From the NCBI GenBank assembly GCA_902795835.1, contig CADBNA010000181.1, positions 1 to 5,182 of the forward strand: a DNA stretch of 5,182 bases. The letters are read 5' to 3'. Every line of letters begins with the position of its first letter. Positions within the stretch are counted from its first letter, which is position 1. The notes below the pieces were generated by a model that was not told where the DNA came from, did no database searches, and saw only the letters and a list, made by a program, of their open reading frames with translations. Below are positions 1 through 3,396 of this stretch, piece after piece. Origin of the DNA: an uncultured Lachnospiraceae bacterium. Lineage in GTDB: Bacteria > Bacillota_A > Clostridia > Lachnospirales > Lachnospiraceae. The position numbers were made by a program, and so were the translations under genes.

Positions 1-1698
1 ATAGTTACCAATGGAAACAGCCTTCTCAGACATCCACTCAGGCGCGCAGCCTACCAGCGGGATCTGGGAAATGTTCCAGCCGGAATCCTTTGCGATATCG
101 GAAGCCAGGATCATCATACGGCTGATATCAACGCAGGAGCCCATGTGCAGGACCGGCGGAATGTCGGCCAGCTTGCAGACTCTCTCGAGACCCGCGCCGC
201 AGAGATCTTTCGCCTGCTTGTCCATCAGGCCGGCCTTGGCGGCAGCCTGTGCGGAACATCCGGAAGCGACGATGATAATGTCATTCTCCAGCAGCTTTCT
301 CATCAGGCCGATGTGAGCGGTATCCGGACGGACTCTCGGGTTGTTGCAGCCGACCATGGCCACAGCGCCGCGGAGAACACCGGAGGTCACGCACTCGACG
401 AGCGGCTTCAGGGTGCCGAGCTCATCAACCTGGGAATTCGTAACGGTATCCAGGGTCTTCTTGATCGCTTCAACGGAATAACCGACAACTGCCTTCTGGG
501 TCATCTGCGGGATGTGTACCAGATCCGGCTTTCTGTTCTTGAAGTTCTCACAGGCCATGGTGACGATCTTCTTCGCCTGCTCCCATGCATGCTCCGGATC
601 GAACTCGATGTACTCGGACTCGGGCATTCTCGCGATCGGAGAAGTGGTGACGAACTTCGTGTGGAAGCATTTGCTTAAGGGGCCGAGAGCCGGGAAGATA
701 CACTGCACGTCTACGACGATCAGCTCACAGGCACCGGTCAGAACAACGTTCTCCTGCTGCAGGAAGTTGCCTGCCATCGGGATGCCGCGGCGCATCGCGA
801 CCTCGTTGGAGGTACAGCAGACACCGGAGATTGAGATTCCCTTTGCGCCCTGAGCCTTTGCCAGTGCCACCATCTCCGGATCCTCAGCCAGGTCACAGAT
901 CAGCTCGGACAGAGCCGGATCGTGGCCGTGAACGATAATATTGACATTTTCTTCTTTCATAACGCCGAGGTTGGCAGTGGTCTCGATCGGCTTCGGCGTT
1001 CCGAACAGAACATCGGAAAACTCTGTGCCGGCCATGGAACCGCCCCATCCGTCGGACAGACCGGAACGCAGGGACTGTCTGACCAGCGCTTCCGGCAGGG
1101 AGGAACAACCCATATGGGTCATATGCATGGAGCAGGAAACCTCGCGGTCGATGGCGCGCGGACGGATATCTGCCTTGTCCCACAGCTCCTGGGTGTGCTT
1201 CGGTGCTCTCTCTGTGAATTTCTGGTATCCGAATACCTTTCCGTATTCGCCGAGAGCCATGTAGGCAACCTCATGAGCCAGATCGTAAATATCCTTGCCC
1301 TCGGTCTCTACGCCCCATTCTTTTGCGATGCGGATCAGCTTCTCGGGATCCTTGACTGTATAGGCGCCGTCCGGAGCCGTATGATACAGAACATCACAGA
1401 TGTTGCGGCCGTGATCGGAATGTGTGGCGGAGCCGCCTGCCGTGAAACGCAGGTAGTTACGGCCTACGATACCGTGGGCATCACATCCGCAGATGCCTCT
1501 CGGAGCCTTCGGGGTGATGCGGCACGGTCCCATGGTGCAGATCCGGCAGCAGATGCCCTGCTCACCGAACTTACAGTGCGGAGTCTGGTTCTTTACTCTG
1601 AACTGGTAAGCATCCGCACCTACCTTGGCACCGGTCTCCAGAAGTCGGTTAGTCGCACCCTCGAACTCCTCGACTGTTGTCAGTTTGAATTCACTCAT
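1..1698 (-). CDS. cooS: Anaerobic carbon monoxide dehydrogenase, catalytic subunit (3' end cut by window edge)
   Basis: Ni-Fe-S CODH, which reversibly oxidises CO to CO2 in the cytoplasm; the family also supplies CO to acetyl-CoA synthase in acetogens. The window holds 566 codons without a stop, and family members are roughly 620-670 residues, so about 60-100 C-terminal residues lie off the left edge. Visible ligands, matched from memory to the Carboxydothermus enzyme: Cys42 and Cys50 (bridging D-cluster); Cys51, Cys54, Cys59 and Cys70 (B-cluster, motif CCRIC-x4-C); His259 (HGH motif), Cys295, Cys333, Cys451, Cys481 and Cys522 (C-cluster); and probable catalytic His93 and Lys559 (motif SEKAVSIG). 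All are intact. The start at 1698 is preceded by TAAGGAGG at 1705-1712. It is the last visible gene of the minus-strand unit, 173 bases after cooC. Whether acetyl-CoA synthase or cooF genes follow cannot be seen, so the role (acetogenesis or CO oxidation) stays open. Confidence 0.96.
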   Translation of the reverse strand, partial: MSEFKLTTVEEFEGATNRLLETGAKVGADAYQFRVKNQTPHCKFGEQGICCRICTMGPCRITPKAPRGICGCDAHGIVGRNYLRFTAGGSATHSDHGRNICDVLYHTAPDGAYTVKDPEKLIRIAKEWGVETEGKDIYDLAHEVAYMALGEYGKVFGYQKFTERAPKHTQELWDKADIRPRAIDREVSCSMHMTHMGCSSLPEALVRQSLRSGLSDGWGGSMAGTEFSDVLFGTPKPIETTANLGVMKEENVNIIVHGHDPALSELICDLAEDPEMVALAKAQGAKGISISGVCCTSNEVAMRRGIPMAGNFLQQENVVLTGACELIVVDVQCIFPALGPLSKCFHTKFVTTSPIARMPESEYIEFDPEHAWEQAKKIVTMACENFKNRKPDLVHIPQMTQKAVVGYSVEAIKKTLDTVTNSQVDELGTLKPLVECVTSGVLRGAVAMVGCNNPRVRPDTAHIGLMRKLLENDIIIVASGCSAQAAAKAGLMDKQAKDLCGAGLERVCKLADIPPVLHMGSCVDISRMMILASDIAKDSGWNISQIPLVGCAPEWMSEKAVSIGNY

Positions 1699-1871: not shown

Positions 1872-2639
1872 TCACAGCTCCAGCTTGTTGATGATCTCTT
1901 TCAGGGCGGCCCTTACCGGAGAATCAGCCGGAAGATTGACGGTCGGCTTGCCGTCGCTGTCATATTCGTAAACCGTATCGTCATGCGGAACGACGCCGAG
2001 CAGTTCGAGACCCTGTTTTTCGATCTCTTCCTTTGTGCCCTCGTTGAGCACGCCGCCCTGTGCGCGGTTTACGATGAGGCCGATCTTTTTGGGATGCATG
2101 CCGCACTCCTTAATCAGCTCGGCGATCCGTCCCGCGGCCTGCACGCCTCTGCGGGAACTGTCGCTGACCAGGATGGCCACATCCATGCCCGGCAGAATTC
2201 CTCTGCTGATGTGCTCCATGCCGGCCTCATTGTCCACAACAATATACGGGTAATTGTTCTGAAGCTTCTGCAGCTGCATCTGCAGCAGGCCGTTCACATA
2301 GCAGTAGCAGCCCTTGCCCTGTGAGCGTCCCATGACCAGAAGGTCAAAATTGTCTTCCTCCTCCAGTGCGCCCTGCAGCTTGAACTCCGCAAAATCCGTC
2401 TTGCTCATGCCGGGCGGAAGCGCGCTGCCGAAATCTTCGGAGTGATTGATCTCCTCCCGGACCTCGCCCAGAGTCGGCGGAGCCTCGACACCCAGAACCT
2501 CATTCAGGTTCGAGTTCGCATCCGCGTCCACGGCAAGGATCGGCCCTTTTCCGCTCTCGGCCAGATACTGAATCAGCAGGCCGGTCAGTGTCGTCTTGCC
2601 GACGCCGCCCTTTCCTGCAACAGCGATTACAAAAGCCAT
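1872..2639 (-). CDS. cooC: CooC-type nickel-insertion ATPase for CODH maturation
   Basis: Cytoplasmic SIMIBI/MinD-type ATPase that, in this family, dimerises with ATP and helps insert nickel into the CODH C-cluster. The 255-residue length is normal. The deviant Walker A GKGGVGKTT spans residues 9-17, with signature Lys10 and catalytic-loop Lys15. A switch I-like DADANSNL lies at 38-45, the metal motif Cys111-x-Cys113 (GKGCYCY) sits where CooC proteins bind Ni or Zn at the dimer interface, and the Walker A'-like VVDNEAG is at 134-140. The base-recognition region IVNRAQ is at 189-194. The start is supported by AAAGGAGG at 2650-2657, ten bases upstream. It lies 67 bases after cooT and 173 bases before cooS, which fits co-expression with its client. 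An Mrp/MinD-like ATPase of another function is unlikely given the C-x-C motif and the neighbouring cooS. Confidence 0.94.
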   Translation of the reverse strand: MAFVIAVAGKGGVGKTTLTGLLIQYLAESGKGPILAVDADANSNLNEVLGVEAPPTLGEVREEINHSEDFGSALPPGMSKTDFAEFKLQGALEEEDNFDLLVMGRSQGKGCYCYVNGLLQMQLQKLQNNYPYIVVDNEAGMEHISRGILPGMDVAILVSDSSRRGVQAAGRIAELIKECGMHPKKIGLIVNRAQGGVLNEGTKEEIEKQGLELLGVVPHDDTVYEYDSDGKPTVNLPADSPVRAALKEIINKLEL

Positions 2640-2706: not shown

Positions 2707-2889
2707 TCAGTCGCAGACGAGTTTTACCTCGCTGTTCGCAAGGTCGACATACAGGATCCGCCCCTGTATTCTCGTCTCGTCGCCCAGAATGTCCTTGATG
2801 GTGACAAAATCACCGTCTACTTCTATCCTCGCTGCATTGCGCATCAGAACAGTATTGTCTCCTTCTTTGTATACGGTAGCAAGACACAT
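2707..2889 (-). CDS. cooT: CooT-family small nickel-binding protein
   Basis: A 60-residue protein beginning MCLATVY and ending in a beta-rich pattern (RIEVDGDFVTIKDI, then QGRILYVDLANSEVKLV). Size, the Met-Cys start and the alternating hydrophobic beta strands fit the CooT family (Pfam family earlier called predicted RNA-binding protein). In Rhodospirillum rubrum CooT is a dimer that binds Ni(II) through its Cys2; Cys2 is present here. Expected role: a nickel chaperone or carrier for CODH maturation, acting with CooC. The start at 2889 has GAGGAGG nearby (AGGAGG at 2899-2904, nine bases upstream). It sits between the His/Cys-rich gene and cooC, all on one strand. The family is recognised by pattern from memory, not by a profile search. 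Cys2 and a C-terminal Cys59 are its only cysteines. Confidence 0.85.
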   Translation of the reverse strand: MCLATVYKEGDNTVLMRNAARIEVDGDFVTIKDILGDETRIQGRILYVDLANSEVKLVCD

Positions 2890-2959: not shown

Positions 2960-3319
2960 TCACTCCGCTGAAATGCCTTTTTCAAGCAGATGCTGTTTAT
3001 ATAAGGAAAAGGCAAGGTTCAGATACATGTTGCCCTTCTGGAAATCCGCCGCGCTGCGCCGGATCTGTGCCGCGGCATCAGGCATTCCCTTTTCATCGGT
3101 CTGCGCAGCCAGACGGTCAATCGCCGCCGTCAGCTGTTCGTTGTGCCGGATCAGGTGAGCCAGGGCGGAAAGCGTCTCGTCTGCGCACTGCTCTTCACCA
3201 CAGGCGCCGCAGTGTCCGTTGCCGCCGCAGCCCTTTTCATCGGTTCCGGGATGCCGGTGTGCATCACTGCCGGTCCCATGCGGCATCGGTGTGCCGTTCT
3301 CATCATAAATAATATGCAT
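2960..3319 (-). CDS. Small His/Cys-rich putative metal-binding protein, first gene of the CODH operon
   Basis: Family not named with confidence. The protein has 119 residues. The N-terminal third (about 1-48) is rich in Gly, His and Cys: His2, His14, His21, His23, His36 and Cys31, Cys37, Cys40, Cys45, including the compact motif GHCGACGEEQC (35-45). This suggests a soft-metal site, for example Ni or Zn. From about residue 49 to 115 the sequence looks alpha-helical, with two helices (about 48-73 and 80-112) and a conserved-looking ALAHLIRHNEQ at the start of the first. There is no signal peptide or membrane segment, so it is probably cytoplasmic. The start at 3319 has AGGAG at 3325-3329, only five bases away, and a near-consensus promoter about 50 bases upstream. 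Being first in a cooT-cooC-cooS unit argues for a metal-delivery or storage role comparable to, but not visibly homologous with, His-rich CooJ. That role is inference; the reading frame itself is well supported. Confidence 0.8.
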   Translation of the reverse strand: MHIIYDENGTPMPHGTGSDAHRHPGTDEKGCGGNGHCGACGEEQCADETLSALAHLIRHNEQLTAAIDRLAAQTDEKGMPDAAAQIRRSAADFQKGNMYLNLAFSLYKQHLLEKGISAE

Positions 3320-3367
3320 GAAAGCTCCTGTCAGGTTATAAAAAGACAGACTTATACAGATAGAGTA

Positions 3368-3396
3368 ATTATAAATGATTGCGTTTTTTTTATCAA
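3368..3396 (-). promoter_or_regulatory. Sigma-A-type promoter of the CODH maturation/cooS unit
   Basis: On the minus strand: -35 TTGATA (3391-3396), a 17-base spacer (3374-3390) containing a run of A residues, and a perfect -10 TATAAT (3368-3373). Transcription should start near 3361, giving a leader of about 40 bases before the ATG at 3319. That is too short for a riboswitch, so regulation is more likely by protein binding around the promoter. The match is seen in sequence; activity is inferred. Confidence 0.8.

Follow-up and report, generated by a model that had tools for sequence, protein, structure and literature searches.

A 5,182-nucleotide stretch of DNA from an uncultured Lachnospiraceae bacterium (the 'window' in what follows) encodes a 119-residue protein that, in our judgement, probably serves the carbon monoxide dehydrogenase (CODH)/acetyl-CoA synthase (ACS) system as a CooJ-like accessory protein for nickel. 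The protein belongs to Pfam family PF26551, in which it represents a variant poor in His and with a Cys core. Most likely it works alongside CooT and CooC in carrying nickel or handing it over; a storage function is improbable, given how few His it has. Wherever metal handling is ascribed to this protein below, we infer it.

The protein is encoded on the minus strand (2960..3319, stop codon included; the frame is read from 3319 to 2960), a strand left unstated in a sequence-only reading of this DNA made earlier. The protein starts with Met-His (residues 1–2; 3314..3319, minus). Five bases 5' of the ATG is a ribosome-binding site, AGGAG (3325..3329, minus), and 48 bases separate the ATG from a promoter-like site, TTGATA-17-TATAAT (3368..3396, minus), recognized by its match to the consensus only, at 11 of 12 positions. 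The small gene is the first of a unit that lies wholly on the minus strand. It is followed by cooT (2707..2889; PF10133, E 2.2e-15), by a gene for a CooC-type P-loop ATPase of the CbiA/ParA/NifH-like kind (1872..2639), named cooC by homology and because relatives have it between cooT and cooS, and by cooS, for the CO dehydrogenase catalytic subunit (1..1698, continuing past the window edge; TIGR01702, E 4e-165, over the cut-off). The successive gaps measure 70, 67 and 173 bases; in the last, between cooC and cooS (1699–1871), candidate hairpins fold no better than shuffles. Genes for a 1-phosphofructokinase and a fructose PTS protein flank the small gene on its other side, pointing away. The earlier reading was right, then, about the frame, about its own ribosome-binding site, about a near-consensus promoter and, as the Pfam and TIGR01702 matches bear out, about first place in a cooT-cooC-cooS unit. 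That the frame exceeds chance follows from its own sequence cluster (P0001, six member sequences on three contigs), from a second cluster at 64% identity and from the profile matches described next.

A single-sequence search returned just these two clusters, both with precomputed assignments to PF26551.1; P0001, one of the two, is 100% identical to the window protein over 100% of its length. A profile search returned 5,536 protein matches at E 0.01 or better, some of which may reflect His content because the profile was whole-length, with the His-rich part included; all of the 120 best-listed of these 5,536 carry PF26551.1. The earlier description of the protein as unnamed and as a candidate new chaperone is therefore mistaken: Pfam already covers the family, and the profile search shows no orphan. 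Among the listed relatives, the few that bear a name go by 'cobalt transporter', 'hypothetical protein' or that of a zinc transport protein. PF26551 embraces both the relatives found at 73 cooS loci (the 'locus relatives', described below) and a Eubacteriaceae type, P0123–P0134, a label based on two named records, P0123 and P0131. At the level of the family, the window protein is the same; its own copy differs in being His-poor and in lacking H63 and E66. The term PF26551 was not met in the open-access literature searched.

The window protein contains eight His and four Cys. Five of the His (2, 14, 21, 23 and 36) and all of the Cys (31, 37, 40 and 45) fall within residues 1–45, as had been counted, and the GHCGACGEEQC core singled out earlier is found at residues 35–45. 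The Cys/His core as we delimit it (residues 31–45, with C31, H36, C37, C40 and C45; 3185..3229, minus) occupies the place of the His-rich part of the relatives, and is modeled with mostly low confidence. It is followed by a domain that AlphaFold, supplied with 38 sequences, predicts to be a helical hairpin (residues 48–113; 2981..3178, minus), in agreement with the helical C-terminal half anticipated for it. The two predicted helices comprise residues 48–76 and 80–113; block-mean pLDDT is 97–99 over residues 51–110, and pLDDT is below 50 for residues 16–42. Fold matches to the monomer model are unspecific helical pairs. Locus relatives have 9–31 His (median 22) and 2–7 Cys (median 4), and a CxxC occurs in 63 of the 71 counted; these and the motif counts cover ATG starts only (n = 71), with L034 and L038 left out for their TTG and GTG start codons. 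The window protein has one CxxC and, with eight, the fewest His of the set. The remark that no CooJ-like His tail is present was correct for the window copy, but does not extend to the relatives, which carry a His-rich part at the N-terminus. His follows the start codon in 73 of 73 locus relatives (71 ATG, one TTG, one GTG), and 10 of the 12 Eubacteriaceae-type relatives start with Met-Cys.

Helix 1 of the predicted hairpin carries a three-His motif, with conserved His spaced by one helical turn. In more distant relatives (L094–L096 and L089) and in P0123–P0134 it reads HWxxHxxxH. This form is invariant in the 17 rows of alignment A3, which includes P0123–P0134 and omits L089, and its three His are invariant across eight diverse rows. 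The locus relatives, which are nearest to the window protein, read YMxxHxxxH at the same columns, with Tyr replacing the first His in all 71 rows that have a letter there. The window protein, for its part, reads H55-L56-x2-H59-x3-L63 (residues 55–63; 3131..3157, minus), that is, HLxxHxxxL: the first His is present and the third is lost, H63 and E66 having disappeared and H55 having been gained. H63 and E66 are both present in 73/73 locus relatives, and in 117/117 listed relatives with a letter there among the best 120 of the 5,536 matches. The remaining three rows of the 120, of which only the last 95 residues were taken, are gapped at the motif and are probably CooT fusions. Exceptions occur elsewhere: a tandem copy at L088 (17468–17875) is without H59, H63 and E66, and the tail-less L094–L096 have Gly at 66. 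The HW-type set (A3) and the locus set are homologous (hhalign probability 95.5%), and the same helical hairpin is predicted for both. A direct BLASTP comparison of the window protein with P0128 (E 1e-5 for the single comparison) places H55 opposite the first His of the motif. Of the other alignments, A1 comprises 36 of the 73 locus relatives, P0002 and the window protein, and A2 takes in P0002 whole. Cys/His positions that are not conserved had been named beforehand as evidence against a metal-related role, and such evidence exists in part, in the two residues that the window copy lacks and every locus relative has.

Gene order ties the family to CODH. Just 5' of cooT, a relative of the small protein is present in 73 of 80 cooS loci, a linkage biased towards close relatives because the 80 are the best of 383 by closeness to the window CooS; by their titles, they come mostly from Lachnospiraceae, Blautia and unclassified Clostridia. 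CooT lies between the relative and cooS in 73 of the 73, and cooC does so in 70. A second CooC homologue lies 3' of cooS in 72 of the 73, and this would presumably be the ACS maturation ATPase, AcsF. L069 was followed further: there an acetyl-CoA synthase gene comes next, and cooT is separated from cooC by a gene resembling methylenetetrahydrofolate reductase. Among the seven loci without a relative, L030 ends 220 bases, and L071 1.75 kb, upstream of cooS; for L016, L075 and L077, the genomes have the gene outside the stretch that was fetched; L065 and L078 are unexplained. In Acetoanaerobium noterae (L092), whose CooS is 58.7% identical, neither a relative nor CooT was found within 12 kb on each side. 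Homologues residing mostly away from cooS and cooC, a pattern that the sequence-only reading held would overturn its proposal, are thus not what the 80 loci display, nor what the family sample of genomes described next does.

Whole genomes give a view of the same linkage from the small gene itself. In a sample of 150 genomes from one bacterial family, that of G001, the C-terminal profile A2 matches 20, and CooT matches the same 20; cooS matches 31, of which 18 are shared with the small gene. The small gene adjoins cooT in all 20, with 10–64 bases between the matched segments, and in 17 it is no more than 2.4 kb from cooS. In G065 the distance is about 10 kb, and in G025 and G096 no cooS was found. 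In a class-level sample of 245 genomes, A2 matches eight and the HW-type profile A5 matches 11, including those eight. All 11 are among the 28 genomes with CooT, and 10 of them have cooS, the exception being G385, in which none was found. In G226, G326 and G388 the small gene and cooT lie away from the genome's own cooS, and in G220 the contig ends, so that the distance cannot be told. One genome, G001, is common to both samples, leaving 30 distinct genomes, in six of which the gene–cooT pair is either away from cooS or without a cooS found; the genomes are phylogenetically non-independent, and a missing cooS may be an assembly gap. The cooS that adjoins the small gene scores 531–622 bits against TIGR01702, versus 478–506 or 690–880 bits in the 13 of 31 cooS genomes that lack the small gene. 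From these scores, the latter look like other CODH types.

Fusions tie the domain to CODH/ACS nickel handling more directly than gene order does. In P0020, P0028 and P0046, PF26551 and CooT are joined in one frame of 191–196 residues. In genome G367, a 973-residue frame (L089, 6700–9618, minus) combines a His-rich start, a PF26551-type domain and a whole acetyl-CoA synthase (PF18537, PF03598 and PF19436). In G276, tandem copies precede cooT (L088, 17468–17875 and 17930–18457), of which the first begins with a Cys-rich segment and lacks the His motif; the second has that motif in addition to a long His-rich part. Copies devoid of the His-rich part were also seen. HLxxHxxxH versions of this kind (L085, 7943–8296; L086, about 8590–8790, minus; L087, 7780–7989) adjoin cooT among unrelated genes, away from any cooS found. 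HWxxHxxxH proteins of 72–82 residues, likewise without the His-rich part, occur near cooT at L095 (8356–8571), L096 (6768–6986, minus) and L094 (8794–9039), and L095 and L096 also have a His-rich protein nearby.

CooJ of Rhodospirillum rubrum is a helical coiled-coil homodimer. From Alfano's 2019 work, the motif H(W/F)x2Hx3H is said to be strictly conserved in CooJ. The likenesses are several: the window gene, too, encodes a small protein and stands with cooC and cooT in the operon of a CODH; relatives of the window protein combine a separate His-rich segment with a helical domain; and those of the HW type have a three-His helix motif like that of CooJ. There are differences also. The helix motif is absent from the window protein (HLx2Hx3L), and the family's His segment is N-terminal, whereas R. 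rubrum CooJ has a C-terminal tail with 16 His (PMC6006190, which reviews CooJ, available part), of which the window protein has no counterpart. We tested for motif and C-terminal tail, found neither, and therefore stop short of classing the window protein as a strict-sense CooJ. Three sequence searches of the PDB, with two profiles and one sequence, brought up no R. rubrum CooJ. The partner protein CooT binds nickel via Cys2, according to the same part of PMC6006190. A further comparison is with HypA, which starts MHE and whose His2 is critical for nickel (PMC7055735, in the text available). The Met-His start of the window protein and of 73/73 locus relatives recalls HypA, but residue 3 of the window protein is Ile, not Glu, and it has one CxxC in place of the two-CxxC Zn domain of HypA; neither Pfam nor NCBIfam yielded a HypA match to it.

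The CooJ-like idea in general is not new, given a deletion study of 2023 and counts of potential CooJ genes in 2026. The former, as its accessible text reports (PMC10230548), deleted a His-rich gene, hp, and its neighbour nbp, a CooT gene, at the C1-fixing cluster of Clostridium autoethanogenum. Either deletion slowed growth in rich medium, each lowered the amounts of AcsB and CooS1 1.5–1.8 fold, and neither altered autotrophic growth in minimal medium; nickel addition made no difference for the nbp-deleted strain, and deletion of hp shifted the amounts of many proteins. We liken hp (LABRINI_07945, CAETHG_1604) to the small gene by description, His-rich and beside a CooT gene, and not by sequence. 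The 2026 eLife survey of CODHs (PMC13056359, from the portion of text accessible) tallied 68 'potential CooJ' genes; its starting point was operons of clades E and F that contain CooS and CooT, and PSI-BLAST extended the set. It found CooT in 16% and CooJ in 12% of clade E operons, and linked these CooT/CooJ operons to one-carbon genes, with one exception. PF26551 proteins likely overlap these 68, as far as that portion allows. CooJ is also mentioned in PMC7079680, PMC6344411 and PMC11247825, without these proteins in such text as was available. The open-access literature searched was not seen to report the ACS fusion, to assign the motif or to describe a variant poor in His. These points are new here, together with the CooT fusions and the possibility of a second client enzyme.

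The mechanism that we propose has two putative nickel sites. The flexible N-terminus, with its Met-His start and Cys/His core (and, in relatives, its His-rich stretch), would collect nickel. The second site, with tighter binding, would be formed by the motif on helix 1 and would probably lie where the two subunits of a dimer meet, as in R. rubrum CooJ. From there nickel might pass, with the help of CooT and CooC-type ATPases, to CODH and/or acetyl-CoA synthase. Since its His stretch is nearly gone and its helix site is changed, the window copy is expected to hold less nickel than the relatives do, and for the same reason we propose that it acts through its Cys/His core as a delivery or docking partner, not as a store. 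The CooJ-like role suggested by the earlier reading thus gains from the linkage to cooT and cooS, from the conserved His/Cys elements and from the fusions to CooT and ACS, and loses something from the absence of H63 and E66 in this copy.

Its main client could instead be acetyl-CoA synthase, with its Ni-Ni A-cluster, and not CODH, the linkage to cooS being a by-product of the CODH/ACS cluster that they share. We consider this somewhat unlikely, albeit the most serious of the alternatives. The L089 domain is fused to a whole ACS and not to CODH, the cooS beside the small gene scores apart from those elsewhere, which we take for other CODH types, and deletion of hp lowers AcsB (PMC10230548, accessible text). 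Moreover, two of the genomes with the gene and CooT and no cooS found have an adjoining small CdhC-like protein, and in a third such a protein shares the contig. Nevertheless, the same deletion lowers CooS1 too, only one ACS fusion was found, and the window gene forms one unit with cooC and cooS in a window that has no ACS. Alternatively, the window copy may have decayed or been repurposed, no longer handling nickel, its Cys core binding zinc or persulfide. Its loss of H63 and E66 and its low His count fit this idea, as does the first tandem copy of G276, whose start is likewise Cys-rich, whose motif is absent and whose neighbour is a canonical copy. We regard it as unlikely, for the frame, the start signal, the Met-His start, the helical domain and the place in the operon are all intact, the six member sequences of P0001 come from three contigs, and P0002, as the nearest relative, has retained H63 and a total of 12 His. 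Far less probable is an action on the expression or stability of C1 enzymes and not on metal carriage. The many protein amounts altered by deletion of hp, with no growth effect in minimal medium (PMC10230548, accessible text), would suit it, but enzymes that receive too little metal can change in amount too, and the His-rich segments, the helix 1 His motif and the constant pairing with CooT all point to metal. A CooJ-like nickel accessory protein is the reading that we prefer. Position, motif and fusion now connect a family thousands strong, several of whose members are named 'cobalt transporter' in databases, with CooT and CooJ, and its role is thereby directly testable. CODH/ACS is essential to the way of life of acetogens. 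The window copy, being poor in His, amounts to an experiment of nature in which the His-rich stretch can be considered apart from the helix site.

The pair of CooT and PF26551 protein, with a CooC-type ATPase, might be a general nickel-insertion cassette without a special tie to CODH, serving ACS, its fusion partner in one genome, in CODH/ACS organisms and, in G025, G096 and G385, an undescribed nickel enzyme composed of paired subunits resembling 2-hydroxyacyl-CoA dehydratase, a BadF-type ATPase and a CdhC-like (acetyl-CoA synthase beta) protein. This broader reading we offer tentatively and think improbable. In these three genomes the gene–cooT pair is in the neighbourhood of a CooC homologue and of HGD-D (2-hydroxyglutaryl-CoA dehydratase) pairs. 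G025 and G096 also have a BadF ATPase and a CdhC-like protein of 242–265 residues (E 8e-7 and, only just at the cut-off, 4e-5), and the same contig in G385 has a CdhC-like match 12 kb further along. Such a cluster is possibly that of an undescribed nickel enzyme. The CdhC-like protein occurs in 13 of the 150 and four of the 245 genomes, 16 of them distinct. Five of the 16 have the small gene (G025, G096, G385, G042 and G347), and three (G025, G096 and G385) have it in the same stretch. Viewed from the small gene in genomes without a cooS found, the link is thus 3/3; viewed from the CdhC-like protein, it is 3/16. At the level of loci, paired HGD-D proteins and a CooC homologue were observed near the gene–cooT pair, with no cooS found, at L081 (5955–11704), L082 (8573–17785) and L084 (9006–18998); the L081 and L082 clusters also hold the BadF ATPase and the small CdhC-like protein.

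CooT alone is commoner than the pair. No relative of the small protein was found at 10 further CooT loci that we looked at, and at nine of these a conserved gene of 134–148 codons precedes CooT. In the other clostridia in which CooT follows this gene (L093, L097 and L099–L105), an ABC-type ATPase gene could be seen nearby, by eye, at six of the nine loci.
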